The notes: a model not told the origin generated them from the letters alone. Numbered from the stretch's first letter, positions 1,111 to 15,651 are shown. The stretch is DNA of 64,000 nucleotides from Devriesea agamarum (GCF_900070355.1 NZ_LN849456.1:2418001-2482000); one strand, 5' to 3'. Numbers and translations are program-made.

Positions 1111-2085
1111 TTACCGCTGGGTGTCATCAACCAGCAGTTCAACCGCGGTCTCGCGGTCGGTAACCAGCGCGGACACGAATCCGCCTGCGATAGCCGCCCG
1201 GATCGCCTCCACTTTCTCACGCCCCCACGCGACGCCGATCACCAGTGGGATCGAGCGCATGCGAGAGGGATCCACGGAGATGGTTCTCGCGCATAGCGGG
1301 GTGTCTACATGGGAACCGTCGGCAGCGAAATGGTGCCCGCAAATATGGCCCACAGCTTGGGAATGTGTCAGGTGGGCCGACATTTCCACGTTCTCGTGCC
1401 CGTCGAAAATATGTCCGGAGCGGCCTCGCAGCACGGCACCGATTCCGACCAGGGCAACGTCAGCCCGGGCGGCCAGCTCGAGGGTGGTCGCCACCTGGTC
1501 CTCTTGCCTAAGGGCGATAGCTAAGGCCGATGAGGCGACCACCAGCGGAACCGGCAGGGCGTGGTAGCGGCCGCCAAGCTTAGCCGCCATGCGACGGCAG
1601 GCTTCGGGAGAGTCCAACAAGGTGTCGGAGCGCCCCACGCTGCCGATCATCTGCACCACCCGGGATTGGGTGCGTTCAAGTTTCGGCATTGCATCGACCG
1701 TGGCCGCGACCGCCATCCCGTTTGAAATGGCGAGCACGACGTCGTCCTGGGTGCTTTCGATGACCAGGTCGGCGGCGCAGCGGGCAACAGCGGTCGGGGT
1801 GGACATGGCGCCGCCGGATTCTGCGACTCGGACGGCTTTGAGGCCGAATTGGCGCGTCAGTGCTTCTTCGACGGTGAGCACTCGTTCTAACGGGTGGGAG
1901 ATGTGGACGGTGACGATCCCGCGGCGCCGGGCCTCGGCAAGGAGCCGGGAGACAGTCGGACGCGAGTAACCGATTCTCTGGGCGATAGCGCCCTGGCTGA
2001 GGTTGTTTTCGTAGTACAGGCGTGCCACGTCCAACAGCAACGAGATGTGGTGCCGTTCCTCCATGGTCGCGGTACGCGTGATCAT
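1111..2085 (-). CDS. SorC/DeoR-type sugar-responsive transcriptional regulator
   Basis: The protein has 324 residues (317 if the second ATG at 2064 is used). Residues 10-60 form a helix-turn-helix region with 'LSQGAIAQRIGYSRPTVSRL', the SorC/CggR-type DNA-binding domain. The remainder matches the sugar-phosphate-binding domain of this family, with 'DVVLAISNGMAVAATVDAM' and 'VQMIGSVGRSD'. Members usually sense a phosphorylated sugar intermediate and control a neighbouring catabolic operon. The gene is divergent from the lactonase-UlaD-UlaE-UlaF-kinase-transporter operon starting at 2289, which is its obvious target. The effector is inferred to be a phosphorylated intermediate of that route. 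Inverted repeats in the divergent spacer are good operator candidates. Confidence 0.85.
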   Translation of the reverse strand: MITRTATMEERHHISLLLDVARLYYENNLSQGAIAQRIGYSRPTVSRLLAEARRRGIVTVHISHPLERVLTVEEALTRQFGLKAVRVAESGGAMSTPTAVARCAADLVIESTQDDVVLAISNGMAVAATVDAMPKLERTQSRVVQMIGSVGRSDTLLDSPEACRRMAAKLGGRYHALPVPLVVASSALAIALRQEDQVATTLELAARADVALVGIGAVLRGRSGHIFDGHENVEMSAHLTHSQAVGHICGHHFAADGSHVDTPLCARTISVDPSRMRSIPLVIGVAWGREKVEAIRAAIAGGFVSALVTDRETAVELLVDDTQR

Positions 2086-2086
2086 C

Positions 2087-2112
2087 TGTTCATGTTATCG
2101 CTGTCACGATAA
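2087..2112. promoter_or_regulatory. Candidate operator next to the SorC-type regulator start
   Basis: A perfect inverted repeat TTATCG-N6-CGATAA lies at 2095-2112, only ten bases upstream of the regulator start. It is abutted by the octamer TGTTCATG at 2087-2094. The octamer recurs at 2181-2188, inside the second candidate site. Position suggests autorepression or shared control of the divergent promoters. This is inference from symmetry and position. Confidence 0.4.
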
Positions 2113-2172
2113 TGGTTTCGGGACTGAACTCCCAGTTAGATCACGGGAAGACGTCGCAATCTAGTGGATGCG

Positions 2173-2188
2173 TGAACCGATGTTCATG
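2173..2188. promoter_or_regulatory. Candidate second operator upstream of the sugar-acid operon
   Basis: TGAAC-N4-GTTCA at 2173-2186 is a short inverted repeat whose right half extends into TGTTCATG, the octamer also present at 2087-2094. It lies about 100 bases before the operon start at 2289, where an operator for the divergent regulator could sit. Arms of only five bases make chance occurrence possible. Confidence 0.3.
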
Positions 2189-2288
2189 CGGGTGGTGGTG
2201 AATGCTCTACGAGCTGCCTACATTCACAACGTATCCAGGGCGCGGATTACCGAGGATGTCCGGCCCCATTATCGAAGGAGATCGTCCC

Positions 2289-3287
2289 ATGGCAGCTAAG
2301 CCTTTTGCCCGCACTATCCGAGGCGATGTTGATCCGGCGACGCTCGGTGTGGTTAACGCCCACGATCACCTCATCCGGGTGGGGGCCGGAGAGGTTTACA
2401 TCGACCGCGACCACCAGCTCGACTCGGTCGAGAAAGCCATCGAAGAAGGCACCTACTTCGCCGAAGCCTCCAAGAAATGGAGCCCGAACGGCGGCACCGT
2501 CGTCGATATGTGCCCCATCAACTGTGGCCGCGACCTGGACAAACTCGCCGAAGTTGAGGCCGCCGTCGACGGTCTGCAGGTCATTGCCACCACCGGCTTC
2601 CACCGCGAACACGTCTACCTAGAGACCCAATCCCACTGGGTGAGCCGCTACAGCGTAGAGAAAATCGCTGAACTGATCATCGCCGACATCGAAGAAGGCA
2701 TCGACCGCCACGACTACTCCGGCCCCGTCGTCGAACGCACCCCCTACAAGGCAGGCTGCATCAAAGTCGCCACCGCCTACGGCAAAATCACCGCGTTTGA
2801 ACGCAAATGCATGGAAGCCTGTGCCATCGCCTCCATCGAAACCGGCGCCCCGATCAACACCCACACCACCTACGGCACCTGCGGCCTCGAACAAGCACAA
2901 GAACTCAAAAAAATGGGAGTTCCCGCCGACCGGATCGCCATCGGCCACATCCAGCGCAACGCCGACGTGTTCTACCTGCAGCAGATCCTCGACGAAGGCG
3001 TCTACCTCGAAATCGACGGCACCTACCGCATCAAATACCAGCCCGACTCCAACCGCATCATGGAACTGCGTGAACTCGGCGAGAAAGGCTACGGCGACCG
3101 CATCCTGCTCGGCACCGATTCCGGCAAACGCGGATACCAGAAGGCATACGGCGCAGTGACCGGCGTCGACTTCAACCCCGCGGTAGACGGCCCCCGCATG
3201 ATCGCCGAAGGATTCGACCCCGAGTACGTCCACAAGCTCCTCATGCTCAACGGCCAGCGTTTCTTCACCATGCGAGTCGAGGGCTAA
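2289..3287 (+). CDS. Phosphotriesterase-family metal-dependent hydrolase, probable (phospho)lactonase
   Basis: The start is the ATG at 2289, preceded by AAGGAG at 2275-2280; an upstream ATG at 2202 in the same frame lacks such a site. The 332-residue protein has the amidohydrolase metal ligands of the phosphotriesterase family in order: HDH in 'GVVNAHDHL' near residue 22, a lysine in 'AGCIKVA' suited to carboxylation, His in 'INTHTTYG', His in 'IGHIQRN', and Asp in 'LLGTDSG'. Some family members hydrolyse phosphorylated sugar lactones. It is first in an operon with UlaD-, UlaE- and UlaF-like genes that lacks the usual metallo-beta-lactamase-fold lactonase UlaG. The inferred role is therefore opening L-ascorbate 6-phosphate or a related phospholactone. 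Other esters or lactones remain possible. Confidence 0.8.
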   Translation: MAAKPFARTIRGDVDPATLGVVNAHDHLIRVGAGEVYIDRDHQLDSVEKAIEEGTYFAEASKKWSPNGGTVVDMCPINCGRDLDKLAEVEAAVDGLQVIATTGFHREHVYLETQSHWVSRYSVEKIAELIIADIEEGIDRHDYSGPVVERTPYKAGCIKVATAYGKITAFERKCMEACAIASIETGAPINTHTTYGTCGLEQAQELKKMGVPADRIAIGHIQRNADVFYLQQILDEGVYLEIDGTYRIKYQPDSNRIMELRELGEKGYGDRILLGTDSGKRGYQKAYGAVTGVDFNPAVDGPRMIAEGFDPEYVHKLLMLNGQRFFTMRVEG

Positions 3288-3292
3288 GAACC

Positions 3293-3973
3293 ATGGAAGG
3301 TGCTCGCCACCCACGCCTGCAAATCGCACTCGACACAACCGATCTGCCCTCCGCGCTGCGCCCGCTCAACGCCGCCATCGACCACGTCGATGTCATTGAA
3401 TGCGGCACGATCCTGATCATCAACGAGGGGCTACGTGCCGTCCGCGAAATCCGGGCGCTCTACCCCAACACCACGATCCTCGCGGACGTCCGCATCGCTG
3501 AAGCAGGCAACCTGATCGCCCGCAACTGCCTAGACGCTGGCGCGAACTGGGTCAGCTGTGTCGCCGGAGCCTCCCTGACCACCATCGAACAGGTAGTCAA
3601 AGTCGCGGATGAACTCGGCGGCGAAATTCAGGTAGAGCTGAACGACGACCACTACACGCTCGACAAAGCCCGCCAATGGCGCGACATCGGCGTGCAACAC
3701 GTCATCGTCAAACGCTCGCGCGACCTCGAAGCCGCGGGAATCCTCGAATGGACCTCCCGCGACCTCGACCGAATCGCCGAAGTTAAACAGCTGGGATTCA
3801 CCGTCACCGTCACCGGAGGAATCAAAGCCGACGAACTCGATGTCTTCCAAGGTGCCCCGGTAGATGTCGTGATCGCAGGACGTGAAATCGTCAAAGCCAA
3901 TGACCCCCACGCCGCCGCCGCCAAGCTGCAGCAGCGCATTGCGGAAGTCTGGGCAGATGGGCGCGCCTCATGA
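3293..3973 (+). CDS. 3-keto-L-gulonate-6-phosphate decarboxylase-like protein (HUMPS family, altered active site)
   Basis: This 226-residue beta/alpha barrel belongs to the OMP decarboxylase suprafamily and aligns end to end with UlaD/SgbH. Recognisable elements are 'QIALD', 'IECGT', 'VQVELND' spread across the middle, 'KRSRD', 'TVTVTGG' and 'IAGRE'. Family enzymes decarboxylate 3-keto-L-gulonate 6-phosphate to L-xylulose 5-phosphate with Mg2+. The segment that reads DAKIADAG in E. coli UlaD (from recall) reads DVRIAEAG here, so the catalytic Lys is Arg and a nearby Asp is Glu. The His of YHRSRD is Lys. These changes may mean altered chemistry. The gene starts five bases after its upstream neighbour and overlaps the next by four. 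Confidence 0.8.
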   Translation: MEGARHPRLQIALDTTDLPSALRPLNAAIDHVDVIECGTILIINEGLRAVREIRALYPNTTILADVRIAEAGNLIARNCLDAGANWVSCVAGASLTTIEQVVKVADELGGEIQVELNDDHYTLDKARQWRDIGVQHVIVKRSRDLEAAGILEWTSRDLDRIAEVKQLGFTVTVTGGIKADELDVFQGAPVDVVIAGREIVKANDPHAAAAKLQQRIAEVWADGRAS

Positions 3974-4869
3974 GCGAACACTGCGGATGCGAATGCTCGC
4001 CAGGCCGCCACAACGACGGCGCCATCTCCCTCGGGATCTACGAGAAGGCCCTGCGCCACACCGGGGACTGGGACGCGTTTTTCGCTGACGCCCGCGATGC
4101 GGGTTTCAGCTTCGTTGACCTCAGCGTCGACGAAAGTCCCGAACGGCGCGAACGCCTCACCTGGCCCAGCGCCGAACGCCGAGTCCTGCGCGACACCGCC
4201 CGCCGATACGGCATACAGATCGGCGGACTATGCCTATCCGTCCACCGAGCCGTCGGACCAGGTTCAGCCGACCCAGCCGTGCGCGCCGAAGCCGCCCGGA
4301 TTTTCCGGGACGGAATCGACCTGTGCCAAGACCTTGGCATCCCCGTTTTGCAAGTCGCCGGCTACTACGCGTACTACGAACAGCCCGACCCGGACCAGCG
4401 TGCCCGCTACATCGAGACCCTGGCCCAGGCAGTGCCCCACGCGGCCCGCGCCGGGGTGTTACTCGGCATCGAAAACGTCGACGGCAACGATGTCACCTCG
4501 ATCAGCGGAGCGATGGAGATCGTGCGCGACATTGACTCGCCGTGGCTTCAGCTCTACCCAGACATCGGAAACATCGCTGAACAGCAGCTGGACACCCGCG
4601 ACGAACTGCGCGCTGGACGCGGTCACATGCTGGCCCTGCACGTCAAAGACGTGCTGGTCGGTGAACCACGGCGGATCCCCTTTGGCCAAGGTGTCGCGGA
4701 CTTCCCAACCGCTTTCGATGAACTCGCCCGGCAGCAATGGTCAGGTCGAATCATGCTCGAAATGTGGAACGACGACGCCCCGGACTCCGCTGCGATCAGC
4801 GCCCGCTCGCGTGAACTGATCGCCGGATGGCTGCGCACAGCCGGTCTGACGATCAGCACCCACGCCTAA
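3970..4869 (+). CDS. ulaE: L-xylulose-5-phosphate 3-epimerase (UlaE/SgbU type)
   Basis: The 299-residue TIM-barrel protein aligns closely with UlaE: 'LGIYEKAL' at the start of the barrel, 'VDLSVDES', 'GLCLSVHR', 'QVAGYYAYY', 'QLYPDIGN', 'ALHVKD', 'PFGQGVADF' and 'MLEMWND'. The metal-binding set Glu (GIENVDG), Asp (YPDIGN), His (LHVKD) and Glu (LEMWN) is present. The known reaction converts L-xylulose 5-phosphate to L-ribulose 5-phosphate. The ATG overlaps the stop of the upstream decarboxylase-like gene by four bases, which implies translational coupling. Unusually, about 18 residues precede the barrel and include CGCEC plus two His. This extension is absent from E. coli UlaE as I recall it. 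Confidence 0.9.
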   Translation: MSEHCGCECSPGRHNDGAISLGIYEKALRHTGDWDAFFADARDAGFSFVDLSVDESPERRERLTWPSAERRVLRDTARRYGIQIGGLCLSVHRAVGPGSADPAVRAEAARIFRDGIDLCQDLGIPVLQVAGYYAYYEQPDPDQRARYIETLAQAVPHAARAGVLLGIENVDGNDVTSISGAMEIVRDIDSPWLQLYPDIGNIAEQQLDTRDELRAGRGHMLALHVKDVLVGEPRRIPFGQGVADFPTAFDELARQQWSGRIMLEMWNDDAPDSAAISARSRELIAGWLRTAGLTISTHA

Positions 4870-4903
4870 ACCCCACCACACCGCACCCCACCAGGAGGCA
4901 AAG

Positions 4904-5572
4904 ATGCTTGAACAGTTGAAAGAAGAGGTGTGCGAGGGCAACCTCGCGCTTGCGAGATCCGGACTCGTCGCGTGGACCGGAGGGAATCTTTCCGCTCGCG
5001 ACGAGAGCGGCGACGTGATCGTGATTAAGCCGTCCGGCGTGCGCTACAGCGAAATGACACCGGACGATATGGTCGTAGTGTCCATGGACGGGCGCGTGAT
5101 TGAAGGCCATCGCGGACCATCCTCCGATACCCAGTCCCACCTTGGGATTTACCGGGGTCGAGACGACGTGCGCAGCGTTGTGCACACGCACTCGCGGTAC
5201 GCCACTGCCTTTGCGGCAGTGGGTCGAGAAATCCCCTGCTGCCTGACCGCTATCGCTGACGAATTCGGGGGACCTGTGCCCTGTGGCGGGTACGCACCCA
5301 TCGGCGGCGACGCCATCGGGCGCGAAGTCCTCGCAAAAATTGGGCGCTCCCCGGCTATCTTGATGAAACAGCACGGCGTGTTCACCATCGGACCGTCCAT
5401 TAACAAGGCTCTGCAAGCCGCCGTCATGGTCGAAGACGTGGCACGCACCGTCGCCATCGCGGAATCTCTAGGAGACATCGAAATCCTGCCCGACGAGGAA
5501 ATCGAAGCCAACTACGACCGCTACCACAACCGGTACGGAACCATGGCTGCCAGTCTGGGGGTGACGGCATGA
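4904..5572 (+). CDS. ulaF: L-ribulose-5-phosphate 4-epimerase (UlaF/AraD family)
   Basis: The 222-residue protein is a class II aldolase/epimerase. It has 'LVAWTGGNLSARD', 'VIKPSGVRYSEMTPDDMVVV', 'PSSDTQSHLGIY', the zinc motif 'VVHTHSRYATAFA' near residue 90, and a third metal histidine in 'LMKQHGVF'. Family members interconvert L-ribulose 5-phosphate and D-xylulose 5-phosphate, the exit to the pentose phosphate pathway. GGAGG lies just before the ATG at 4904. Its place after the UlaD- and UlaE-like genes matches the order of the E. coli ula operon. AraD from arabinose use is the close alternative, but no araA or araB is nearby. Confidence 0.9.
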   Translation: MLEQLKEEVCEGNLALARSGLVAWTGGNLSARDESGDVIVIKPSGVRYSEMTPDDMVVVSMDGRVIEGHRGPSSDTQSHLGIYRGRDDVRSVVHTHSRYATAFAAVGREIPCCLTAIADEFGGPVPCGGYAPIGGDAIGREVLAKIGRSPAILMKQHGVFTIGPSINKALQAAVMVEDVARTVAIAESLGDIEILPDEEIEANYDRYHNRYGTMAASLGVTA

Positions 5573-6519
5573 CCTACGACCTCACCACGATTGGTGAAGG
5601 ACAGATCCGCCTGACCGTAGATAAAGGCGAACGCCTGGTCTCAGCCCGGCAGCTGCGCATGACCGCGGCCTGCAGCGAAGCGAACGTTGCCGGTCTGCTC
5701 TCCCAACTCGGACGCCACACCTCCTGGTCATCGGTGATGCCGCAGGGGGACCTCTCCGAGCGGGTGCTTCAGGAATTCCGCAGTGTAGGTGTGGATCTCT
5801 CCCATATGGTGCGGGTTCCCGAGGGTCGCGTCGCCCTATATTTCATGGAACCCGGTGAGTTCCCGATGCCCGGCAAAGTCACCTACGACCGCCAGTGCAC
5901 CCCGTTTAGGGACGCGAAAATTGAGGACTTCGACTGGGACACCATGCTCGATGCCCGAATCCTGTTCCTCACCGGCATTACCGCAGCTCTAACCGAGAAC
6001 ACGGCGCGTTTGGTGCGCTATGCTGCCGACGCCGCCGCCGAACGCGGCGTGGACATCGTCCTAGACGTCAACCATCGCACCATGCTGTGGAGTGGCGACC
6101 AGGCCCGCGAGGTCCTCACCCCGATTGCAGAAAAAGCCACGGTGCTGTTTTGCTCCCGCAAAGACGGCGCCACCGTCTTTGGCATCAACGGAAATGGCCC
6201 CGAGGTCTGCCACGCTTTGCGCTCGCGCTTTGGTAGCCGGCACGTCGTCTCCACGGACCAGGTGGAGGGTGTCTACCTGTCCTCAGAAGACGCCGGCGAA
6301 CACACCTTTACGGTGCAGCGGGTTCCCGTGGTCGACCGGCCCGGCGCCGGCGACTCCTTCGTTGCGGGAACGCTGCATGGTGTCCTGGCCGGAAGCGTTA
6401 TGGACGGCGTCTCCTTCGGAATGCGCACCGCAGCCTACGCCCTTACCCACCACGGCGATCTCACCCATATTTCGCCGCGAGAACTCGATATTCCCGTGAC
6501 GACAGACATTGTGAGGTGA
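5569..6519 (+). CDS. PfkB-family carbohydrate kinase
   Basis: The 316-residue protein has ribokinase/PfkB features: N-terminal 'TTIGEGQIRLTVDKGERL', a substrate-lid region with 'AACSEANVAGLLSQLG', and the C-terminal anion-hole motif 'VDRPGAGDSFVAGTLHGVL' holding the catalytic Asp. KDG kinase-like proteins are the nearest family by general look. The ATG overlaps the upstream epimerase stop by four bases. With no PTS gene in the operon, this kinase is the likely step that phosphorylates the imported substrate. Because UlaD acts on a 6-phosphate, L-ascorbate or 3-keto-L-gulonate is the logical acceptor, but that is inference. Confidence 0.88.
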   Translation: MTYDLTTIGEGQIRLTVDKGERLVSARQLRMTAACSEANVAGLLSQLGRHTSWSSVMPQGDLSERVLQEFRSVGVDLSHMVRVPEGRVALYFMEPGEFPMPGKVTYDRQCTPFRDAKIEDFDWDTMLDARILFLTGITAALTENTARLVRYAADAAAERGVDIVLDVNHRTMLWSGDQAREVLTPIAEKATVLFCSRKDGATVFGINGNGPEVCHALRSRFGSRHVVSTDQVEGVYLSSEDAGEHTFTVQRVPVVDRPGAGDSFVAGTLHGVLAGSVMDGVSFGMRTAAYALTHHGDLTHISPRELDIPVTTDIVR

Positions 6520-6523
6520 TCGT

Positions 6524-7870
6524 ATGAACGCCACCGCATCATCGCCCACCGCGTATGAACAGATCGACTCCCGTCCTCTTACCAAGAATCAAAAGAGCCT
6601 CATTTCCCTGGTCGTGATGGGAAACCTGTCGGAGTTTTTCGACATGTTCCTGATCGGTTTCGTCGTGGCACTGCTGACGAAACCATGGCACCTCACCGGC
6701 TTTGAAGCCGGGACGATCCTGGCCTGCTCGGGGCTCGGCACGGTTCTCGGCGCCATCCTCTGGGGCCGACTCGCCGACCACATGGGCCGACGTCACGCAT
6801 TCTTCTGGTGCGTCGTCATGTTCGTCGGCTTCACCGCGCTCACACTGCTGACACCGGACCGCGGCTGGTGGATGCTCGCCATTTTGCGGGTAGGCGTCGG
6901 CATCGGCGTCGGCGGATTGAACATCACCTCAATCCCGTACGTCCAAGAGTTCGTGCCGTCCAAGCATCGCGGCCTGCTTGCGGGCCTCGGGTCCGTGTTC
7001 ATTCCGCTGGGACTCTTCCTCGGCTCGGTCTCGCAGAAAATCGTCGGTGACGATTGGCGTTTGCTGATCGCACTGGGCTGCCTGCCAGTACTCTTGCTGA
7101 TCTGGTTGCATTTCGTCCCGGAATCGCCCCGGTATTTCCAGAGCAAAGGCCGTGACGACGACGCGCGCAAAGCCCTCGCCTGGGCGTTGGAGCTTCCGAT
7201 CGAGAAAGTGGGATCCCTGCCGCCGCTCGAAGAAACCTCGGCAGCCTCCTACCGTGTGGTGTTCACAAAGTATCTGCGACCGCTGATCGTGGTCACCTTG
7301 GGCTCATTCTGCTTCATCATGGGTGGCTTCGCCGTACAGTCCTGGGGACAGACCCTGCTCAAAGATGGGTTTGGCTACAGCGTGGGCACCGTAGCGCTGC
7401 TGTTCATGCTGGTTTCGTTCGCCGATCTCATTGGCCGTCTCGGATCGGCGTTCCTCGCGGACTTAATTGGCCGCCGCACCACCATGTTCCTGTTCGGCCT
7501 GCTGGGTGCGGTGGGCTGCTTTATCGCGGCTTTCTCACATCACAGCGGTGTTGTGTTCTTCATTGCGGTTCTCGTCATCATGATGTTTGGCGACGGTGCA
7601 TTCGGCATTCTCAACGCCTTCGGCGCTGAACAGTTCCCGACGGCGGCGCGTTCAACCGGCCTTGGCCTCGGCTACGGCATCGGCGCCACCGCGAAAATCA
7701 TCGGCCCCGCACTGCTGGGTTTCATGATCGGCGGAAACGCGGTGAAACAAAATGTCACCTTGGATGTGATCACCCCAGCGTTCAGCTTCTTCGGAATCTG
7801 CCTGATCATCGGCGCCATCACCTACCTGTTTGCACGGGAGACCAAGGGCAAGTCGCTGGAAGAAATTTAG
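6524..7870 (+). CDS. MFS sugar/acid transporter
   Basis: The 448-residue protein has about twelve hydrophobic segments and major facilitator signatures: 'GRLADHMGRRHAF' between helices 2 and 3, 'LADLIGRRTT' in the second half, 'PESPRYF' after helix 6 and 'RETKGKSLEEI' at the C-terminus. These are typical of the sugar porter and aromatic acid/H+ symporter subfamilies. GAGGTGA precedes the ATG at 6524, four bases after the kinase stop. It is the last gene of the operon and presumably imports the unphosphorylated substrate. This replaces the UlaABC phosphotransferase system of enterobacteria. Confidence 0.88.
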   Translation: MNATASSPTAYEQIDSRPLTKNQKSLISLVVMGNLSEFFDMFLIGFVVALLTKPWHLTGFEAGTILACSGLGTVLGAILWGRLADHMGRRHAFFWCVVMFVGFTALTLLTPDRGWWMLAILRVGVGIGVGGLNITSIPYVQEFVPSKHRGLLAGLGSVFIPLGLFLGSVSQKIVGDDWRLLIALGCLPVLLLIWLHFVPESPRYFQSKGRDDDARKALAWALELPIEKVGSLPPLEETSAASYRVVFTKYLRPLIVVTLGSFCFIMGGFAVQSWGQTLLKDGFGYSVGTVALLFMLVSFADLIGRLGSAFLADLIGRRTTMFLFGLLGAVGCFIAAFSHHSGVVFFIAVLVIMMFGDGAFGILNAFGAEQFPTAARSTGLGLGYGIGATAKIIGPALLGFMIGGNAVKQNVTLDVITPAFSFFGICLIIGAITYLFARETKGKSLEEI

Positions 7871-8027: not shown

Positions 8028-9125
8028 ATGCCAACCGTGTCCAACACTCCCGCATCCCCGGAAAAACTCTCGGCGCATCCCGCCAACCCCACCAGCAGCC
8101 TGACGATCCCTGGCCCGGCCCGCACTGCCACCGCGTGCCCCACCCGGGCATTTAGCATCGTGGTGCATGCAGGTGCAGGTTCGCGCACCGAGGAACTCAG
8201 CCTCGAAGCCCAAGCCGACTACGAAGAGGGCCTTCGCGCCGCGCACGCGGCAGGGGAGAAGATCTTAGAGCGCGGCGGCAGCGCCGTGGATGCGGTGTGC
8301 GCCGCGGTCGCGGAACTGGAAGATAACCCCCTGTTTAACGCTGGACGAGGTGCAGCGTTGACCTCCGAAGGGCGCGTCGAACTCGATGCCTGTGTGATGG
8401 ACGGCGGCAGTAACGCCATGCCCACAGATACTTCTGCCCGCCCGGATGCGGCAGCGGATATGGCATCGATGGCTGATACGCAGGCCCAGCCGGTTCACGG
8501 TCTGCCGCGAGCGGGCGCGGTGGCAACCCTGACGGGTGCGCGCAATCCAGTCCGGATGGCACGTGCAGTGCTCGACGAAGGCCGCCATGTGCTGATGATG
8601 GGGGTGGATACTGAGCGCATCGCGGCCTACGGATGCGAGACCGCCCCGGCGGCCTATTTCATCACCGAGGCGCGGCGGACCCAGCTGGAACGAGTGCGCG
8701 CCGGACTCGAAGAAGGTGAAAAACACGGCACCGTCGGAGCAGTGGCCCGGGACGCGTCGGGTCGCCTCGCGGCGGCCACTTCCACCGGTGGCCTGGTCAA
8801 CCAGGCCCCCGGACGGGTCGGGGACACCCCGGTGGCAGGTGCCGGAACCTATGCCCGAACCGGCCTGGTGGCGATTTCCTGCACGGGCACCGGGGAAGCG
8901 TTCATCGAGGCGTGCACCGGGCACGAGATAGCCTCACGGATGCGATACCGCGAAGACGACCTGGAAACGGCGCTCGCCGGGGTTCTGGATGAGGAGATTG
9001 GACCGCGCTGCGCAGACGGCGGCATTATCGGCGTGGATGCGCGGGGACGGATCGTTGTGGCTCTGAACGCGGAGGCCATGTTCGCGGCGTGGCGCGACGG
9101 CGACGAAATTGTGGTGACCGTCTGA
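8028..9125 (+). CDS. Isoaspartyl peptidase/L-asparaginase (Ntn hydrolase, plant-type)
   Basis: The 365-residue protein carries the type 2 asparaginase pattern: 'FSIVVHAGAGSR' near residue 43, 'GGSAVDAVCAAVAELEDNPLFNAGRGAALT', the autocleavage site 'HGTVGAVARDASGRLAAATSTGG' spread over the middle, and 'GDTPVAGAGTYA'. The nucleophile after self-processing would be Thr235 of HGTVGAV. Family members remove beta-aspartyl residues from peptides and hydrolyse asparagine. About 42 residues precede the conserved core. No good ribosome binding site marks the ATG at 8028, so a slightly later start is possible. The region around residues 130-160 is Ala/Asp/Thr-rich and may be a linker-like insertion before the cleavage site. 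Confidence 0.9.
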   Translation: MPTVSNTPASPEKLSAHPANPTSSLTIPGPARTATACPTRAFSIVVHAGAGSRTEELSLEAQADYEEGLRAAHAAGEKILERGGSAVDAVCAAVAELEDNPLFNAGRGAALTSEGRVELDACVMDGGSNAMPTDTSARPDAAADMASMADTQAQPVHGLPRAGAVATLTGARNPVRMARAVLDEGRHVLMMGVDTERIAAYGCETAPAAYFITEARRTQLERVRAGLEEGEKHGTVGAVARDASGRLAAATSTGGLVNQAPGRVGDTPVAGAGTYARTGLVAISCTGTGEAFIEACTGHEIASRMRYREDDLETALAGVLDEEIGPRCADGGIIGVDARGRIVVALNAEAMFAAWRDGDEIVVTV

Positions 9126-9267: not shown

Positions 9268-10191
9268 TTACACGCGGCGACGCCGGGCGGTGATACCTGC
9301 CGCGAGCAGGGTGAGCACGGCCCCAGCCAAGGTTGTCCACACCAGATGGGTTCCGGGCGCGGGAGCGATCGTATCCAGCAGAACAGACCCCGTGATTTGC
9401 CCGGCAATAGTGGTCATTGCCAGGGTCAACACCCCCAAGGTGTGCACCAGCTGAGCAGAAATAGCAATAAAAGCCACCCCGATCACCCCGCCAATGTAGA
9501 GAATCGGATCCGTCGGTAGAGCCCGCGGCGGGCCACTCACACCCACGTGAATCAACGCACCGATCACCAACAAGATCGTGCCGAGCACGAAATTCGCCAG
9601 GGTCGCCGTTAAATAGTGGCCCGAATGGGTGGAGACTCGCCCGTTGACCGCTTGTTGCAGGCCGACAAACACTCCGGCGATAACCGGCAGAATGAGCAGC
9701 CCCCACGGGATGCTGTGTTGCGCCGTAGTGATTCCTTCTCCCGACATCGCGAGGATCACCGCCGCCACCATGAGCACCGCACCCAGTACCCGAGAGACCG
9801 AAAGCTGACGGGGTCCGCCTGGTCCGAGCCCCACGCGGTCCACCACCAGGCTGGTTACGGTCTGTCCGGCGACCAAGCTGACAACGAACAGCGCCACCCC
9901 GATGGACGCCACGGTGAGACTCTGTGCCAGGATCAGCATGCCGCCCCCGACACCTCCAAGAGCGAGGTACCAGGGAAAACGTCGTTGCCAAAGGTCGTGG
10001 CAGAACTGGGCGGTGGCGCATCGGGCCCGGGGCAGAGCCAAGGTACATGTGGCCACCAAAATCAAGCCACTCCCGAACGATATGGCTGCGGCCACGTAGC
10101 CATCGTCGAGCTCAGCGGCCAGCTGACCATTGATGCGCGACTGCACGGCAAGTAAGACGCCACTCAAGACTGTTAACGGAATAGCCCACAC
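9268..10191 (-). CDS. DMT-family transporter (DUF606/YdcZ-like, tandem halves)
   Basis: The 307-residue protein has about ten hydrophobic segments. It begins 'MWAIPLTVLSGVLLAVQSRINGQLA', typical of the DUF606 (YdcZ) branch of the drug/metabolite superfamily. The motif recurs halfway as 'LLILPVIAGVFVGLQQAVNGRV', so two DUF606 units are fused. Many family members are single 140-150-residue proteins. Substrate is unknown. It faces the isoaspartyl peptidase gene tail to tail and shares its strand with the small membrane protein gene upstream of it. Confidence 0.8.
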   Translation of the reverse strand: MWAIPLTVLSGVLLAVQSRINGQLAAELDDGYVAAAISFGSGLILVATCTLALPRARCATAQFCHDLWQRRFPWYLALGGVGGGMLILAQSLTVASIGVALFVVSLVAGQTVTSLVVDRVGLGPGGPRQLSVSRVLGAVLMVAAVILAMSGEGITTAQHSIPWGLLILPVIAGVFVGLQQAVNGRVSTHSGHYLTATLANFVLGTILLVIGALIHVGVSGPPRALPTDPILYIGGVIGVAFIAISAQLVHTLGVLTLAMTTIAGQITGSVLLDTIAPAPGTHLVWTTLAGAVLTLLAAGITARRRRV

Positions 10192-10205
10192 GGAACGCCT
10201 CGGGA

Positions 10206-10598
10206 TCAGTCGTCGTGCCGTGGATGCTCGCCCCGAGGATTCTCGTCCGGCTGCTCTTTACGCTGCTGTTCCCGGCGACGGCGTCTGATGTCCTCATCGA
10301 GCTTGCGCAAAAACTCTGGGTCCTCATCGGGAGCCATGGGGCGTCGACGGCGGGTAGCTTCCCGTCGGCGAGCCAGCTCATCGCGCAGTTCTCGACGGAC
10401 GCCGGTGACACCAGCGATGCTGCGATCTTTGCCGACTAAGATCCATGCGATTGGCCCCGCGACGGGGACCAGTGCAATCACGATGAGCCACACGAATTTT
10501 GGCAGCCCTTTGATTCGCGTGTCGTCGGTGGACGCGCAGTCGGCAATCGCATAGATGGTCAGAGCAATTATCACGATCGCGAGGATGACCCTGGGCAT
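10206..10598 (-). CDS. PLDc_N-domain small membrane protein
   Basis: The 130-residue protein has two hydrophobic helices with the pattern 'AIADCASTDDTRIKGLPKFVWLIVIALVPVAGPIAWILVGKDR'-type spacing (residues about 15-58), the phospholipase D N-terminal membrane domain found alone in many actinobacteria. The C-terminal half is very rich in Arg, Glu and Asp and probably cytoplasmic. No PLD catalytic HKD motif is present. Its role is unknown. It lies beside a DUF4229 gene and menA, a neighbourhood often seen in actinobacteria. Confidence 0.75.
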   Translation of the reverse strand: MPRVILAIVIIALTIYAIADCASTDDTRIKGLPKFVWLIVIALVPVAGPIAWILVGKDRSIAGVTGVRRELRDELARRREATRRRRPMAPDEDPEFLRKLDEDIRRRRREQQRKEQPDENPRGEHPRHDD

Positions 10599-10648
10599 GT
10601 AGCCAGTGTATCGGCAGCTTTTTGTTCCGCCCGATAGAGTGGTTTACC

Positions 10649-10960
10649 GTGCGAGACCTTCTGCTGTATGTCTTTCTTCGCGTCCTCATTTTCGCGGCCC
10701 TGTGGTGGCTGCTGTATTGGATTGGGCTCGGGAGTTTAGCCCTGAGCGGGATTTTTGCCGCGGTTCTCGCGATGCTGGTGTCAATTCTTGTCCTCGGGCG
10801 TCCCCGGCAGGGCATTGCGTTGCGTTGGGAACAAGCGGATGCGCGTCGCCGTGCGCGCAAGGCTCCGGTCCGCGATCACGACGCCGATGCTGAAGATCAG
10901 CTCATCGACGGTTCCTCACCCGAGGGTGCGGTGCAACAGCGCTCCGGCGAGAACCAGTAA
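10649..10960 (+). CDS. DUF4229-family small membrane protein
   Basis: The chosen start is GTG at 10649, giving 103 residues that begin 'RDLLLYVFLRVLIF' directly at the first membrane helix; a TTG at 10622 would add nine residues. Two hydrophobic helices (about residues 3-50) are followed by 'RRARKAP' and an acidic tail. This matches the DUF4229 pattern. Function is unknown. It is divergent from the PLDc_N gene and convergent with menA, whose 3' end it overlaps by 45 bases. Confidence 0.7.
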   Translation: MRDLLLYVFLRVLIFAALWWLLYWIGLGSLALSGIFAAVLAMLVSILVLGRPRQGIALRWEQADARRRARKAPVRDHDADAEDQLIDGSSPEGAVQQRSGENQ

Positions 10961-11815
10961 CGAGAACACCAGTTCCAGGCGGCCACTCGACCCGAGGGCC
11001 GGGATGAGGTCGTATCCGGTGAGGCGTCTGATCAGCACATCCCGAAGCGGGGCGATAGTCAGCGGCAATGCGCCGGCCACTAAAGCGACCCAGGGGGCTG
11101 AGATGATCACCGGAATCATGAGAGCAAACGGGACCAGCAGCAATGCGACGATCAGTCGGCGCGAGGCTGAGTCGCCGATGCGCACCGACAGGGTGAGTTT
11201 GCCGCTAGCCCGGTCAGTGGGGATATCCCGCAGATTATTAATGACCAGAAGCGATACGGCGAGTAACCCGACAGCGCACGCCGCACACACCGCGCCGATG
11301 CTGACTGTGCCGGCAATCAGATAGCTGGTGCCCAAAACTGCCACCAGCCCAAAAAACACGAACACGAAGACTTCGCCGAGCCCTCGGTACCCGTACGGGT
11401 TCGTTCCACCGGTGTAGAACCAGGCGGCGGCGATTGCGGCGATGCCGACCAGCACCATCCACCAGGCTCCGGCGAGTGCGACCAGGGTCAATCCGCAGAT
11501 GGCGCCGACGGCAAAGCAGATGAAGGCAGCGCGTTTGACCGCGGCGGGTCGAGCTGCCCCGGAACCGGTGAGGCGGAAAGGTCCGACTCGTTGGTCGTCT
11601 GTGCCCCGGATGCCGTCGGAATAGTCATTGGCATAGTTCACGCCGATTTGCAGTGCGAGACAAAGCCCGAGTGCCAGCAGGGCACGAGGGATGGTAATGC
11701 TTGGTTTGAGACCCGCTTCAATAATCGCCAGCGCGGTGCCCACGGCAACGGGCGCGACGGCGGCGGGTAACGTTTTGGGGCGGGCTGCGCTGATCCACTG
11801 GGCGGGACTGGCCAC
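10916..11815 (-). CDS. menA: 1,4-dihydroxy-2-naphthoate polyprenyltransferase
   Basis: MenA attaches the prenyl chain to dihydroxynaphthoate at the membrane, giving demethylmenaquinol. The UbiA-family motifs are clear: 'NYANDYSDGIRGTD' and 'LLVINNLRDIPTDRASGKLT' supply the two Asp-rich Mg-diphosphate sites, within eight or nine hydrophobic helices. The start is set to GTG at 11815 because AAGGAG lies six bases upstream and the protein then begins 'MASPAQWISAARPKTLPAA', as usual for MenA (299 residues). A frame extension to 11911 would add 32 atypical residues. It follows menB and menE on the same strand. Confidence 0.93.
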   Translation of the reverse strand: MASPAQWISAARPKTLPAAVAPVAVGTALAIIEAGLKPSITIPRALLALGLCLALQIGVNYANDYSDGIRGTDDQRVGPFRLTGSGAARPAAVKRAAFICFAVGAICGLTLVALAGAWWMVLVGIAAIAAAWFYTGGTNPYGYRGLGEVFVFVFFGLVAVLGTSYLIAGTVSIGAVCAACAVGLLAVSLLVINNLRDIPTDRASGKLTLSVRIGDSASRRLIVALLLVPFALMIPVIISAPWVALVAGALPLTIAPLRDVLIRRLTGYDLIPALGSSGRLELVFSLLVLAGALLHRTLG

Positions 11816-11878
11816 GGAACTCCTTGAGGCAATATCGATGGACTGAGACGGTGCTGTGAGGCAACCGGCTGAAGCACC

Positions 11879-11922
11879 TGGCACGGGTGTAGCCGTTGTC
11901 ACGGCTGGCACGGGTGTAGCCG
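11879..11922. repeat. 17-bp direct repeat between menE and menA
   Basis: TGGCACGGGTGTAGCCG occurs at 11879-11895 and again, identical, at 11906-11922, a spacing of 27 bases. It sits in the untranslated stretch between the menE stop and the menA start. No function is evident. Confidence 0.6.
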
Positions 11923-11944
11923 CGGGCCTGTGCTCAGGTGCTGG

Positions 11945-13312
11945 TCACTGTGGCTGTTCGCCGTCGTGAAGCTGAGACAGCGCAAGGTCTGTCGCTGCGG
12001 ACCTGTCGATCTTACCGATCCCGAGCCGGGGAAGTTCTTCCACGGCAAGTAGCCGGTGCGGAGTGTGCCAGCGTTTGAGCCCGAGGCTACGTAGGTGATT
12101 GCGTACGTCATCGCGCGAGGGCAGCTGCTTGCCCGCCTCTGGTGAACACACCAGCAACGCCACGGGTGCTTGGCCCCATTCAGGATCGGGGATACCGACC
12201 ACGGTTGCTTCACGCACACCCGGCATAGTTGCCAGGGCCCGCTCGACGTCCTGCGGAAGGATTTTCTGCCCGCCGCTGATGATGACGTCATCCGCCCGCC
12301 CCAGCACGGTCAGGAGCACATCGGGGGTCGCAGAGGTGATGGGTCCGGTGACGGTGGTGGATGCGGTGGGATCCAGCCGCGCCAGATCTGAGGTGGGCAA
12401 AGGCCTCGGGAAAAGGTCAGCGTGTCCGTCGGGGAATAGGTACCCCAAACCCAGGGTGGGGGAGTCAATCAGCAGACGGTCATCGCGAAGGGTGAGCTGG
12501 ACCCCGCGCAGAGGACGACGATCATAGACGCATCCCCCGGCGGTTTCGCTGGACCCATAGGTGGTGACCACGTGTGCGCCGAGCGTGCAGGCATCCTCCA
12601 GGAGATCAGGGGAGGTGGCGGCGCCGCCGACCAGAATCGCGTCGAAACTGCTGAGCGCATCGGCTATGGACCGCGCGGTAGCGGCATCTGCGGTGGCGGC
12701 GTTGATCAGGCGCTGTAGCTGGGTGGGAACCAGCGAGGTGAATCGTCGGGGTGCGCCCTGGCTCTGGGCATGGACATGAAACGCCTCGACAGCATGTAGG
12801 AAATGGTCGGGGGTGAACGTCTGGGAGAGGTCTGCTAGTCCGGGCTCGTATCCGGCGGCGAGCGACCGGCAAAGCACCTGGATCCCGGCGATATGGGTGG
12901 GTGGAAGCAGGCACAGCCATACTCCAGCACCACCCAGGGCACGATCGGTGATGTCCCATGACGCTTTTAAAGACGCCAGGGAATGCGCCACGGCTTTGGC
13001 GGTGCCTGTGCTGCCAGAGGTCGGGACCACCAAAACAGTGCTGTTGAGCGCCTTCGGTAACCTCCCCGGAGCAGGAAACGGGCCCAGCCATACCCGGGCG
13101 GGGATAGATTCCTCAGTGGCGATGGATGCGACAGCGCTGGGTGCAATGACACCGGGGCCATCCCCGGATACGGCGGGGAAGGGGGTGGCGGGGCGCCGGC
13201 CATCTAGACAGGATGTCGCCACAGGACGCAGCGCCTCGCAGTGCTCGCGCAACGACGCAAGAGATCTGTCATAGGGCGCAGGGATGCGCCAATCCAGCTC
13301 GTTCATACCCAC
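11945..13312 (-). CDS. menE: o-Succinylbenzoate-CoA ligase
   Basis: This 455-residue AMP-forming acyl-CoA synthetase has the P-loop 'VVPTSGSTGTAKAVAHSL', the 'TYGSSETAGGCVYD' motif, and the C-terminal hinge and lysine region 'GRADDVIISGGQKILPQDVERAL' and 'LPRLGIGKIDRSA'. MenE activates o-succinylbenzoate to its CoA thioester before MenB. The GTG at 13312 is two bases after the menB stop; an ATG at 13306 is an equal alternative start. Position between menB and menA on the same strand supports the specific assignment over other acyl-CoA ligases. Confidence 0.92.
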   Translation of the reverse strand: MGMNELDWRIPAPYDRSLASLREHCEALRPVATSCLDGRRPATPFPAVSGDGPGVIAPSAVASIATEESIPARVWLGPFPAPGRLPKALNSTVLVVPTSGSTGTAKAVAHSLASLKASWDITDRALGGAGVWLCLLPPTHIAGIQVLCRSLAAGYEPGLADLSQTFTPDHFLHAVEAFHVHAQSQGAPRRFTSLVPTQLQRLINAATADAATARSIADALSSFDAILVGGAATSPDLLEDACTLGAHVVTTYGSSETAGGCVYDRRPLRGVQLTLRDDRLLIDSPTLGLGYLFPDGHADLFPRPLPTSDLARLDPTASTTVTGPITSATPDVLLTVLGRADDVIISGGQKILPQDVERALATMPGVREATVVGIPDPEWGQAPVALLVCSPEAGKQLPSRDDVRNHLRSLGLKRWHTPHRLLAVEELPRLGIGKIDRSAATDLALSQLHDGEQPQ

Positions 13313-13314
13313 GC

Positions 13315-14316
13315 CTAGCCCTGGGGGTGGGGAAAGGGCGACCAGTCGGGTTCACGCCGCTGCAAAAAGGCATCCCGTCCCTCCACAGCCTCATCCGTCA
13401 TATAGGCCAGCCGGGTAGCTTCCCCCGCAAAAACCTGCTGACCCATCAGGCCGTCGTCGGTGAGATTGAAAGCGAACTTCAGCATCCGAATAGCCTGCGG
13501 CGATTTGGTTCCGATAATGCGGGCCATCTCCAAGGCGGCATCCTCCAACTCGGCGTGGGGAACCACCCTATTGACCGCGCCCCAAGCGTAGGCATCCTCC
13601 GCTGAGTATTCCTCGGCCAGGAAGAAAATCTCCCGAGCCCGTTTCTGGCCAACCTGCTTTGCAAGATAGGCGCTCCCGTACCCGCCATCAAAACTGCCGA
13701 CATTCGCATCGGTTTGCTTAAACCGAGCATGCTCGCGCGAGGCAATCGACAGATCGGCCACCACATGCAGGGAATGCCCCCCGCCTGCCGCCCAACCACC
13801 AACCACAGCGATCACCACTTTGCCCATGGTGCGGATGAGCCGCTGACATTCCAGGATGTGCAACCGTCCGGCCTGCCCTGGGATGACGCTGGCCGAGCTG
13901 ACACCGTCGGCGTACTGGTATCCCGATCGGCCACGAATGCGCTGGTCACCGCCGGAACAAAAAGCCCATCCGCCGTCCTTGGGTGACGGACCATTCCCGG
14001 TCAGCAAAATCACGCCCACCCCCGGGTCGAGCCGCGCATGGTCCAACGCCCTAAAAAGCTCATCCACCGTGTGCGGCCGAAACGCATTGCGCACCTCGGG
14101 CCGGTCAAACGCAATCCGCACGCAGTTCAGATCGCGCACGGTGCCGTCGGCCTGACGGTCAACCGCTCGGTGATAAGTGATGTCTGTGAAGGCGGGACCG
14201 GAGAGCTCATCGGGGCCGATGTCCCGCCACCGGTCAGGGTCGAAAGTTTCGGAAACCTGGCGCGGTCGCTTATCGGTCGCGGGCGCGGAGGCGGACAGGC
14301 GCTCAGAATCTGGCAT
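13315..14316 (-). CDS. menB: 1,4-Dihydroxy-2-naphthoyl-CoA synthase
   Basis: This crotonase-fold enzyme closes the second ring of the naphthoquinone from succinylbenzoyl-CoA. Motifs typical of MenB are 'FDRPEVRNAFRPHTVDEL', 'WAFCSGGDQRIRGRSGY', 'VVIAVVGGWAAGGGHSLHVV', 'FKQTDANVGSFDGGYGSAYL' and 'AREIFFLAEEY'. The chosen ATG at 14316 yields 333 residues. Upstream extension in frame reaches only a TTG at 14421 and adds a sequence without family character. menE follows two bases after the stop, so the two are probably translationally coupled. Confidence 0.95.
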   Translation of the reverse strand: MPDSERLSASAPATDKRPRQVSETFDPDRWRDIGPDELSGPAFTDITYHRAVDRQADGTVRDLNCVRIAFDRPEVRNAFRPHTVDELFRALDHARLDPGVGVILLTGNGPSPKDGGWAFCSGGDQRIRGRSGYQYADGVSSASVIPGQAGRLHILECQRLIRTMGKVVIAVVGGWAAGGGHSLHVVADLSIASREHARFKQTDANVGSFDGGYGSAYLAKQVGQKRAREIFFLAEEYSAEDAYAWGAVNRVVPHAELEDAALEMARIIGTKSPQAIRMLKFAFNLTDDGLMGQQVFAGEATRLAYMTDEAVEGRDAFLQRREPDWSPFPHPQG

Positions 14317-14454
14317 ATGCACAGAATACTGGGCCGCAGGTACGGCGCTGCTGGTGGGACCGAACAATGGGGGAGAACCCGGGTCGGGCTGTGGCCTCCG
14401 TCGGGCTGCCTCTGAGGTCAAAAGTCCCGGTCAGAAGGGGTCTGATAGGGCAAG

Positions 14455-14488
14455 GATGGAGGTGTCTCCTCCTAGAGGCACCCCCATC
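14455..14488 (+). promoter_or_regulatory. Stable hairpin in the 5' leader of the alcohol dehydrogenase gene
   Basis: The arms GATGGAGGTGTCTC and its near complement ending CACCCCCATC pair over about 14 positions, with two G-T type mismatches and a short loop. The hairpin ends a few bases before the ribosome binding site TTAGGAG of the downstream gene. It may be an operator, a processing element or a leader that controls access to the ribosome site. Nothing identifies a ligand. Confidence 0.4.
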
Positions 14489-14504
14489 ATTCTTAGGAGT
14501 TTCT

Positions 14505-15524
14505 ATGACCACCATGCACGCTGCCGTTGTCCCATCGCTAGGGGCTCAGCTCGACGTGAAAGAGGTTGAGATCCCGGAGCCCGGCCCCGGACAGGTCCTC
14601 GTCAAGAACATCGCCTCCGGCGTGTGCCACACCGATCTGCACGCCGCTAAAGGCGACTGGCCGGTGAAGCCTACGCCTCCGTTCATCCCCGGGCATGAGG
14701 GCGTCGGACGGGTTGAGAAGCTTGGCGAAGGCGTCACCGATCTCAAGGTTGGTGACCTCGTGGGCAACGCTTGGCTGTGGTCGGCATGCGGTCACTGCCA
14801 GTACTGCCGTACCGGATGGGAGACCCTGTGCGAATCCCAGGAGATGGGCGGCTACACCGTAAACGGTTCGTTCGGTGAATACATGCTGGTGGACGCCACC
14901 TACGCACCTCGTCTGCCCGAGGGTGTGGACCCGTACGAGGTGGCCCCGATCCTGTGCGCAGGGGTCACCGTGTACAAGGGCCTGAAGATGACCGAGACTC
15001 GCCCGGGCGAATGGGTTGTGATCTCCGGTCTCGGCGGCCTTGGACACATCGCGGTGCAGTACGCGAAGGCGATGGGGATGCGGGTCGTCGGCGTGGATAT
15101 CGCCCAGGAGAAGCTGGACCTCGCGCTCAGCCACGGCGCGGACCTGGTGGTTAACGCGGCCACCGAAGATCCCGGTACGTTCGTTCAGGAGAAGATCGGC
15201 GGCGCCCACGGTGTGCTGGTGACCGCTGTGCATCCGCAGGCATTTGCGCAGGCCACCGCCATGGTTCGTCGCGGCGCTACGGTTGTGTTCAACGGTCTTC
15301 CCCCCGGCGACTTCCCGGCATCGATCTTCGACATCGTGCTGCGCGGTCTGACCATCCGCGGCTCCATCGTGGGCACGCGTCAGGACATGGTCGAAGCTAT
15401 CGAGTTCTACGCTGCCGGCCAGATTAAGCCCACGGTTAAGACTCGTCCGCTGGCCGATATCAACGAGATCTTCGACGACCTCGAGCACGGCCGCATTGAT
15501 GGCCGCATCGTGTTGAAGTACTGA
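14505..15524 (+). CDS. adhP: Zinc-dependent alcohol dehydrogenase (AdhP type)
   Basis: The ATG at 14505 follows TTAGGAG and gives 339 residues, the family's usual length. Zinc sites are complete: catalytic Cys in 'SGVCHTDLHAAKGDW', 'PFIPGHEGVGRV', and structural Cys in 'ACGHCQYCRTGWETLC'. The NAD-binding Rossmann motif is 'ISGLGGLGHIAVQYAKAMG'. AdhP-type enzymes interconvert ethanol and acetaldehyde with NAD(H). It is monocistronic, between menB (divergent) and menC. Its leader holds a strong hairpin. With adhE at 44169-46835 it gives the window two independent ethanol/acetaldehyde enzymes. Confidence 0.9.
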   Translation: MTTMHAAVVPSLGAQLDVKEVEIPEPGPGQVLVKNIASGVCHTDLHAAKGDWPVKPTPPFIPGHEGVGRVEKLGEGVTDLKVGDLVGNAWLWSACGHCQYCRTGWETLCESQEMGGYTVNGSFGEYMLVDATYAPRLPEGVDPYEVAPILCAGVTVYKGLKMTETRPGEWVVISGLGGLGHIAVQYAKAMGMRVVGVDIAQEKLDLALSHGADLVVNAATEDPGTFVQEKIGGAHGVLVTAVHPQAFAQATAMVRRGATVVFNGLPPGDFPASIFDIVLRGLTIRGSIVGTRQDMVEAIEFYAAGQIKPTVKTRPLADINEIFDDLEHGRIDGRIVLKY

Positions 15525-15651
15525 TCGCATCAGCCATCTGAGCACGACACGGCGGGCGAGAGCATCTAGCTTTTTGCCCCCGTGTCACCGGTGTCCGGGC
15601 CGGTCGCGGGGTCGCCCCGTGGCCGGTCCGGTCGTGTTTTACCCTGCTGAT

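Follow-up and report, generated by a model that had tools for sequence, protein, structure and literature searches.

A putative phosphotransferase-independent L-ascorbate cassette with an altered decarboxylase motif in Devriesea agamarum and other actinobacteria

Genes and operator at the locus

The subject of this article is a six-gene operon of Devriesea agamarum which, together with a divergent regulator, probably provides a route for L-ascorbate catabolism that is independent of the phosphotransferase system (PTS). It lies in a window of 64,000 nucleotides, positions 2,418,001-2,482,000 of the 2.96 Mb single-contig genome (GCF_900070355.1 NZ_LN849456.1), and gene coordinates are counted from the first letter of that window. 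The original prediction had described six packed, co-directional genes and a divergent SorC-type regulator, and all seven were found by family searches with Pfam and NCBIfam; the six genes lie on the plus strand with intergenic gaps of 5, -4, 34, -4 and 4 bases. First comes a phosphotriesterase (PTE)-family amidohydrolase (PTE, PF02126; 2289-3287), a predicted phospho-lactonase proposed to replace UlaG, and then a UlaD-like protein (OMPdecase, PF00215; 3293-3973), a putative beta-keto-acid decarboxylase that carries DxRxxE for DxKxxD. These are followed by a UlaE-like L-xylulose/L-ribulose-5-phosphate 3-epimerase (3970-4869), a UlaF/AraD-type (PF00596) L-ribulose-5-phosphate 4-epimerase (4904-5572), a putative sugar-acid kinase of the PfkB family (PF00294; 5569-6519) resembling 2-keto-3-deoxygluconate (KDG) kinases, and a major facilitator superfamily (MFS) transporter (PF07690/PF00083; 6524-7870) whose nearest match is the acid:H+ symport subfamily TIGR00895, at a score under the cut-off. 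The PTE reading frame opens at 2202, and the ATG at 2289 is the likelier start because homologues align only from about this codon, AAGGAG forms a Shine-Dalgarno sequence at 2275-2280, and the structure model gives a pLDDT (predicted local distance difference test score) of about 30 to the first 31 residues of the longer frame.

The regulator (1111-2085, minus strand) has the Sugar-bind domain (PF04198) and an N-terminal helix-turn-helix, and nearly all related loci have an orthologue in the corresponding position. Between regulator and operon a palindrome, TGAACnnATGTTCA, is conserved across these loci, its half-site matches averaging 9.7/10 over 34 intergenic regions as against at most 6.9 in shuffles, a generous comparison in that the motif was found in the same regions, many of the loci are closely related and only single-base composition is preserved in the shuffles. 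The window holds two operator-like palindromes: TGAACCGATGTTCA at 2173-2186, whose exact sequence occurs once in the 2.96 Mb genome, and TGATCATCTGTTCA at 2079-2092, one mismatch from TGAACNNATGTTCA; paired sites are present in many related loci as well. Because the latter overlaps the annotated regulator start at 2085, the true start may lie a few codons downstream. The SorC protein would be expected to bind these palindromes. Elsewhere, at G000:C1:2007742-2007755, the palindrome TGAACTTTTGTTCA is one mismatch from the operator of the operon on both strands and may serve a SorC-type regulator as a further site.

Recurrence of the cassette in actinobacteria

Genome-neighbourhood analysis had been named in the original prediction as a means of checking it, and a PTE-based scan of a genome collection did place the same families together in 35 actinobacterial loci, from Bifidobacterium (including species of bee and primate), Bombiscardovia, Corynebacterium, Dermabacteraceae, Flaviflexus, Tessaracoccus, Arachnia, Propionibacteriaceae and other actinobacteria. 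The core genes stand together in nearly all of those loci for which a long enough stretch was at hand, and the kinase, found in 24 of 151 Bifidobacteriaceae genomes, lies within the cassette every time (24/24). This repeated association in other actinobacteria, and the constant place of the bifidobacterial kinase inside the cassette, show that the arrangement is not chance. Kinase and UlaD are rare elsewhere, for an even draw of 396 Actinomycetota genomes returned only D. agamarum itself and one genome of the same order; the draws represent part of known diversity, and the systematic search was of Actinobacteria.

An all-against-all comparison of open reading frames (ORFs) from the loci revealed no further gene broadly recurring with the cassette across genera. 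The recurrent extra ORFs proved on reading to be antisense or overlapping frames of the cassette, and an ABC-transporter ATPase and a helicase-like gene are each common to a few loci. No dehydrogenase is therefore attached to the cassette across genera, and the homologous operons did not show the consistent dehydrogenase by which the original prediction was to be refuted. At 8028-9125 on the plus strand, 157 bases downstream of the MFS gene, an Asparaginase_2/beta-aspartyl-peptidase-like gene lies outside the conserved cassette.

Two bifidobacterial genomes that carry the first cassette hold a second one with the same seven families, SorC, PTE, UlaD, PfkB, UlaE, UlaF and MFS (G546, L118, C1:956000-974000; G504, L151, C27:37500-55500). 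Its proteins in G546 are 31-57% identical to those of the window. The UlaD of the second cassette has DxRxxR and an HPS-like Ala at position 169 (HPS, 3-hexulose-6-phosphate synthase), and this cassette may serve a related acid. Both this divergent cassette and the DxRxxE motif of the first had been overlooked in the original prediction.

Active sites and the proposed ascorbate route

By sequence and fold the nearest solved structures to the PTE-family protein are 3msr/3ovg (Mycoplasma synoviae) and 3pnz (Lmo2620), and structure predictions of this protein and of the kinase confirmed the families and nothing beyond. Its closest relatives with operon context are mycoplasmal and are placed in ula PTS operons where UlaG would be; three mycoplasmas (M. 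cynos, M. hyorhinis and M. gallopavonis) have the order PTE-EIIC-EIIB-EIIA-UlaD-UlaE-UlaF without UlaG. Cassette and mycoplasmal PTEs join in the tree (support 84/88) and have in common a 10-residue DYSGPVVERT-like insert that is missing in Lmo2620-like PTEs and in those of the second cassette. The metal ligands H54, H56, K188, H221, H249 and D306 are invariant in 18 cassette PTEs, as are R252, K278, Y279, K309 and Y312 (K, K, Y, R and Y in mycoplasmas), at the positions of the phosphate ligands of MS53_0025. That these phosphate-site positions are kept supports a phosphorylated lactone as substrate, and hence a kinase that acts first. A profile search of the D. agamarum genome gave no match to UlaG (NF008688). 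The replacement of the PTS by MFS and PfkB, and of UlaG by a PTE-family protein, is well supported by context, while L-ascorbate as the substrate is a proposal that goes beyond it.

Two further PTE loci keep different company. At a Brachybacterium-like locus in a genome of the same family (L072, G038; 9929-15548) the lactonase gene stands with FGGY-like kinase, KDPG-aldolase-like, two dehydrogenase-like and ABC sugar-transport genes, all read by eye; it was set aside as a relative because the kinase, aldolase and dehydrogenases speak for a different pathway, perhaps another for a phospho-lactone. In the Listeria locus L064 (5892-11172) an Lmo2620-type PTE is accompanied by genes for a UlaA-type PTS, a creatininase-family protein, a KDGP-aldolase-family protein and a sugar isomerase, which would make up a PTS-lactone pathway other than ula.

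The UlaD homologue has as its best NCBIfam match 3-dehydro-L-gulonate-6-phosphate decarboxylase, the enzyme also called 3-keto-L-gulonate-6-phosphate decarboxylase (KGPDC). In the alignment it keeps the KGPDC-type residues E112, R139, T169 and R192, where HPS has D, I/L, A and G/A, as well as Asp11, Glu33 and Asp62 (Asp11 falls outside the stretch read in one row), and position 136 is Lys or His in the cassettes. A tree splits HPS from the rest (100/100) and sets the cassette UlaDs beside KGPDC; on this split and on residues 112/139/169/192 a formaldehyde-fixing HPS role was rejected. Both epimerases retain their active sites: the metal-site equivalents E155/D185/H211/E251 are kept in the UlaE-like protein (aligned with 3cqh), and D76/H95/H97/D120/H171, with the epimerase Asp and the zinc ligands, in the UlaF-like one (aligned with 1jdi). 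Because the Asp76 and Asp120 equivalents are present, a class II aldolase was rejected for the latter. Since bifidobacterial cassettes have UlaE and UlaF copies of other lineages swapped onto the same core, the product of that core would most simply still be L-xylulose 5-phosphate. In the kinase, the acid-binding Arg105 and Arg167 and the catalytic Asp251 of KDG kinases are kept in 31 of 31 cassette sequences and would suit an anionic six-carbon acid, and the substrate loop GGAE has become AACSE, with Gly to Ala at position 33 in all 31 and Gly to Cys at position 34 in 29. A locus in G185 (L155), where PfkB lies beside a UlaG-like protein, was considered as a missing link and rejected, since its neighbours, by reading and with no family search on them, resemble a KDPG aldolase and an enolase-superfamily enzyme and the locus therefore seems unrelated.

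From the gene families, the conserved catalytic residues, the conservation of operon and operator and the missing UlaG match, I infer a substrate and a sequence of reactions, kinase before lactonase, to which I would give a probability of about 0.6. The MFS protein would import the ascorbate monoanion, the PfkB kinase would phosphorylate it at O6 to L-ascorbate 6-phosphate, and the PTE-family enzyme would hydrolyse the 1,4-lactone to 3-keto-L-gulonate 6-phosphate; the UlaD-like enzyme would then decarboxylate this acid to L-xylulose 5-phosphate, which UlaE and UlaF would epimerise to D-xylulose 5-phosphate for entry into the pentose-phosphate or phosphoketolase pathway, all under the control of the SorC protein through the conserved TGAACnnATGTTCA sites. 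L-ascorbate is the best substrate that I can propose for this core.

Several observations weigh against this assignment, and the first of them is the most unusual feature of the cassette. Arg takes the place of Lys64 and Glu that of Asp67 in every cassette UlaD checked, whereas DxKxxD is present in every KGPDC compared (E. coli, Pantoea, Aerococcus, Ligilactobacillus, mycoplasmas and S. mutans, 3exr), including mycoplasmal enzymes encoded next to a PTE, as well as in 28/28 HPS-type sequences; a motif of this type is described as conserved in orotidine 5'-monophosphate decarboxylase (OMPDC) of all organisms (PMC12874384). Against the NF009832 cut-off of 250, UlaD scores are 240.6 for the window, 231.4 for L048 and 257.8 for L022, and the PTE reaches 232 bits with NF045706 (phospho-furanose lactonase, MS53_0025 type), for which the equivalog cut-off is 630. 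The MS53_0025/MAG_6390 lactonases are reported to be active on D-xylono- and L-arabino-1,4-lactone 5-phosphates (PMC10971088). Bifidobacterium indicum (L037, G047) keeps PTE, UlaD, PfkB and MFS, but its whole 1.7 Mb genome lacks a UlaE homologue, and in B. subtile (L046, G055) the PTE is truncated and a UlaE homologue was not found; these gaps are signs of loss, perhaps decay, or of a different downstream route. Finally, the description "PTS-free" fits the operon, which encodes no UlaABC, and does not extend to the genome, where the sole UlaA-type EIIC lies away from the operon at G000:C1:1526330-1527553 (L069). The neighbours of this EIIC (EIIC-GAT) are an EIIA-type gene, other PTS genes and a very large ORF that resembles a beta-galactosidase; no gene of ula catabolism is among them.

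The altered motif bears on the idea that the same families handle a six-carbon substrate other than L-ascorbate. This might be a related vinylogous acid lactone or 3-keto-hexonate, for instance an epimer or derivative of ascorbate, and both the decarboxylase with its DxRxxE and the kinase with its AACSE pocket would be tuned to it. The UlaD change in every cassette, set beside PTS-type KGPDCs that keep K/D, the family-wide GG to AC change in the kinase loop, and a second cassette showing that the gene set can diversify all favour this idea; however, the UlaE and UlaF active sites are unchanged and re-recruited, the KGPDC-type specificity residues are kept, and by stereochemical reasoning the 5-epimer (erythorbate) would yield D-ribulose 5-phosphate and so have no need of UlaE/UlaF, which leaves such a substrate unlikely. 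A second thought is that the lactonase acts first, the PTE opening unphosphorylated ascorbate (or the MFS protein importing free 3-keto-L-gulonate) and the kinase then acting on the open-chain keto acid. LyxK is thought to phosphorylate an open-chain keto acid in the E. coli yia/sgb route, and the cassette kinase resembles KDG kinases, which act on keto acids, down to its carboxylate-binding Arg105/Arg167, but the invariant phosphate-ligand positions of the PTE are hard to explain for an unphosphorylated lactone and make this order improbable. That the operon degrades pentonates or pentonolactones through pentono-1,4-lactone 5-phosphates, as the reported mycoplasmal lactonase activities might suggest, is most improbable, given that neither a dehydrogenase nor a dehydratase is a recurrent member of the cassettes and that UlaD would be left with no role, pentonate 5-phosphates not being beta-keto acids.

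Beyond the ascorbate assignment itself, a broader suggestion can be made tentatively, namely that the cassettes form a family of lactone-acid pathways with a rebuilt decarboxylase centre in the OMPDC/KGPDC superfamily, where Arg replaces the Lys of the motif and Glu or Arg its Asp, with two paralogous versions, type 1 with DxRxxE and type 2 with DxRxxR, serving two related substrates, joined to an ascorbate-type PfkB kinase.

Comparison with known systems

The literature search turned up no ascorbate operon of actinobacteria or bifidobacteria that includes a PfkB kinase, and I found no earlier description there of the MFS plus PfkB version of the ascorbate route. The idea of a PTE in the place of UlaG is not new, since a PTE-type protein was proposed in 2016 as the missing UlaG of swine mycoplasmas (PMC4866288). 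Should the ascorbate assignment be true, actinobacteria, bifidobacteria among them, possess a vitamin C catabolic route of their own, with a kinase not earlier tied to ascorbate in the literature searched, and gene content could be used to test for turnover of the vitamin in the guts of animals and bees; furthermore, the DxRxxE decarboxylases would provide a natural experiment on a motif described as conserved in OMPDC and present in every KGPDC and HPS compared.

The mycoplasma operons (MAG_6390/MS53_0025-type phospho-furanose lactonase) share with the cassette a PTE of the same clade with the insert and a UlaD/E/F operon without UlaG, but they use a PTS and their UlaD has the classical DxKxxD. 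Lmo2620 of Listeria (3pnz), likewise a PTE-family protein, agrees with the cassette enzyme in its metal-ligand positions and has phosphate-site residues that are identical or K/R-swapped, whereas it has no insert and its operon has UlaA-type PTS, KDGP aldolase and sugar isomerase in place of UlaD/E/F. KDG kinases (2afb, 1v19) resemble the cassette kinase in fold and in the Arg105/Arg167/Asp251 positions, and differ in the GGAE loop; the cassette kinase, moreover, does not adjoin a KDPG aldolase. The E. coli yia/sgb operon (LyxK, SgbH/U/E) likewise sets an ATP-dependent kinase before UlaD-type decarboxylation, but with TRAP uptake of 2,3-diketo-L-gulonate, the YiaK reductase, an FGGY kinase and no lactonase. 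With the E. coli ula operon (UlaABC PTS, UlaG, UlaD/E/F) the cassette shares a decarboxylase and two epimerases of the UlaD/E/F type, their order, and the presumed product, D-xylulose 5-phosphate, and it differs in having MFS and PfkB for the PTS, a PTE-family protein for the metallo-beta-lactamase-fold lactonase, a SorC regulator and a UlaD with DxRxxE.

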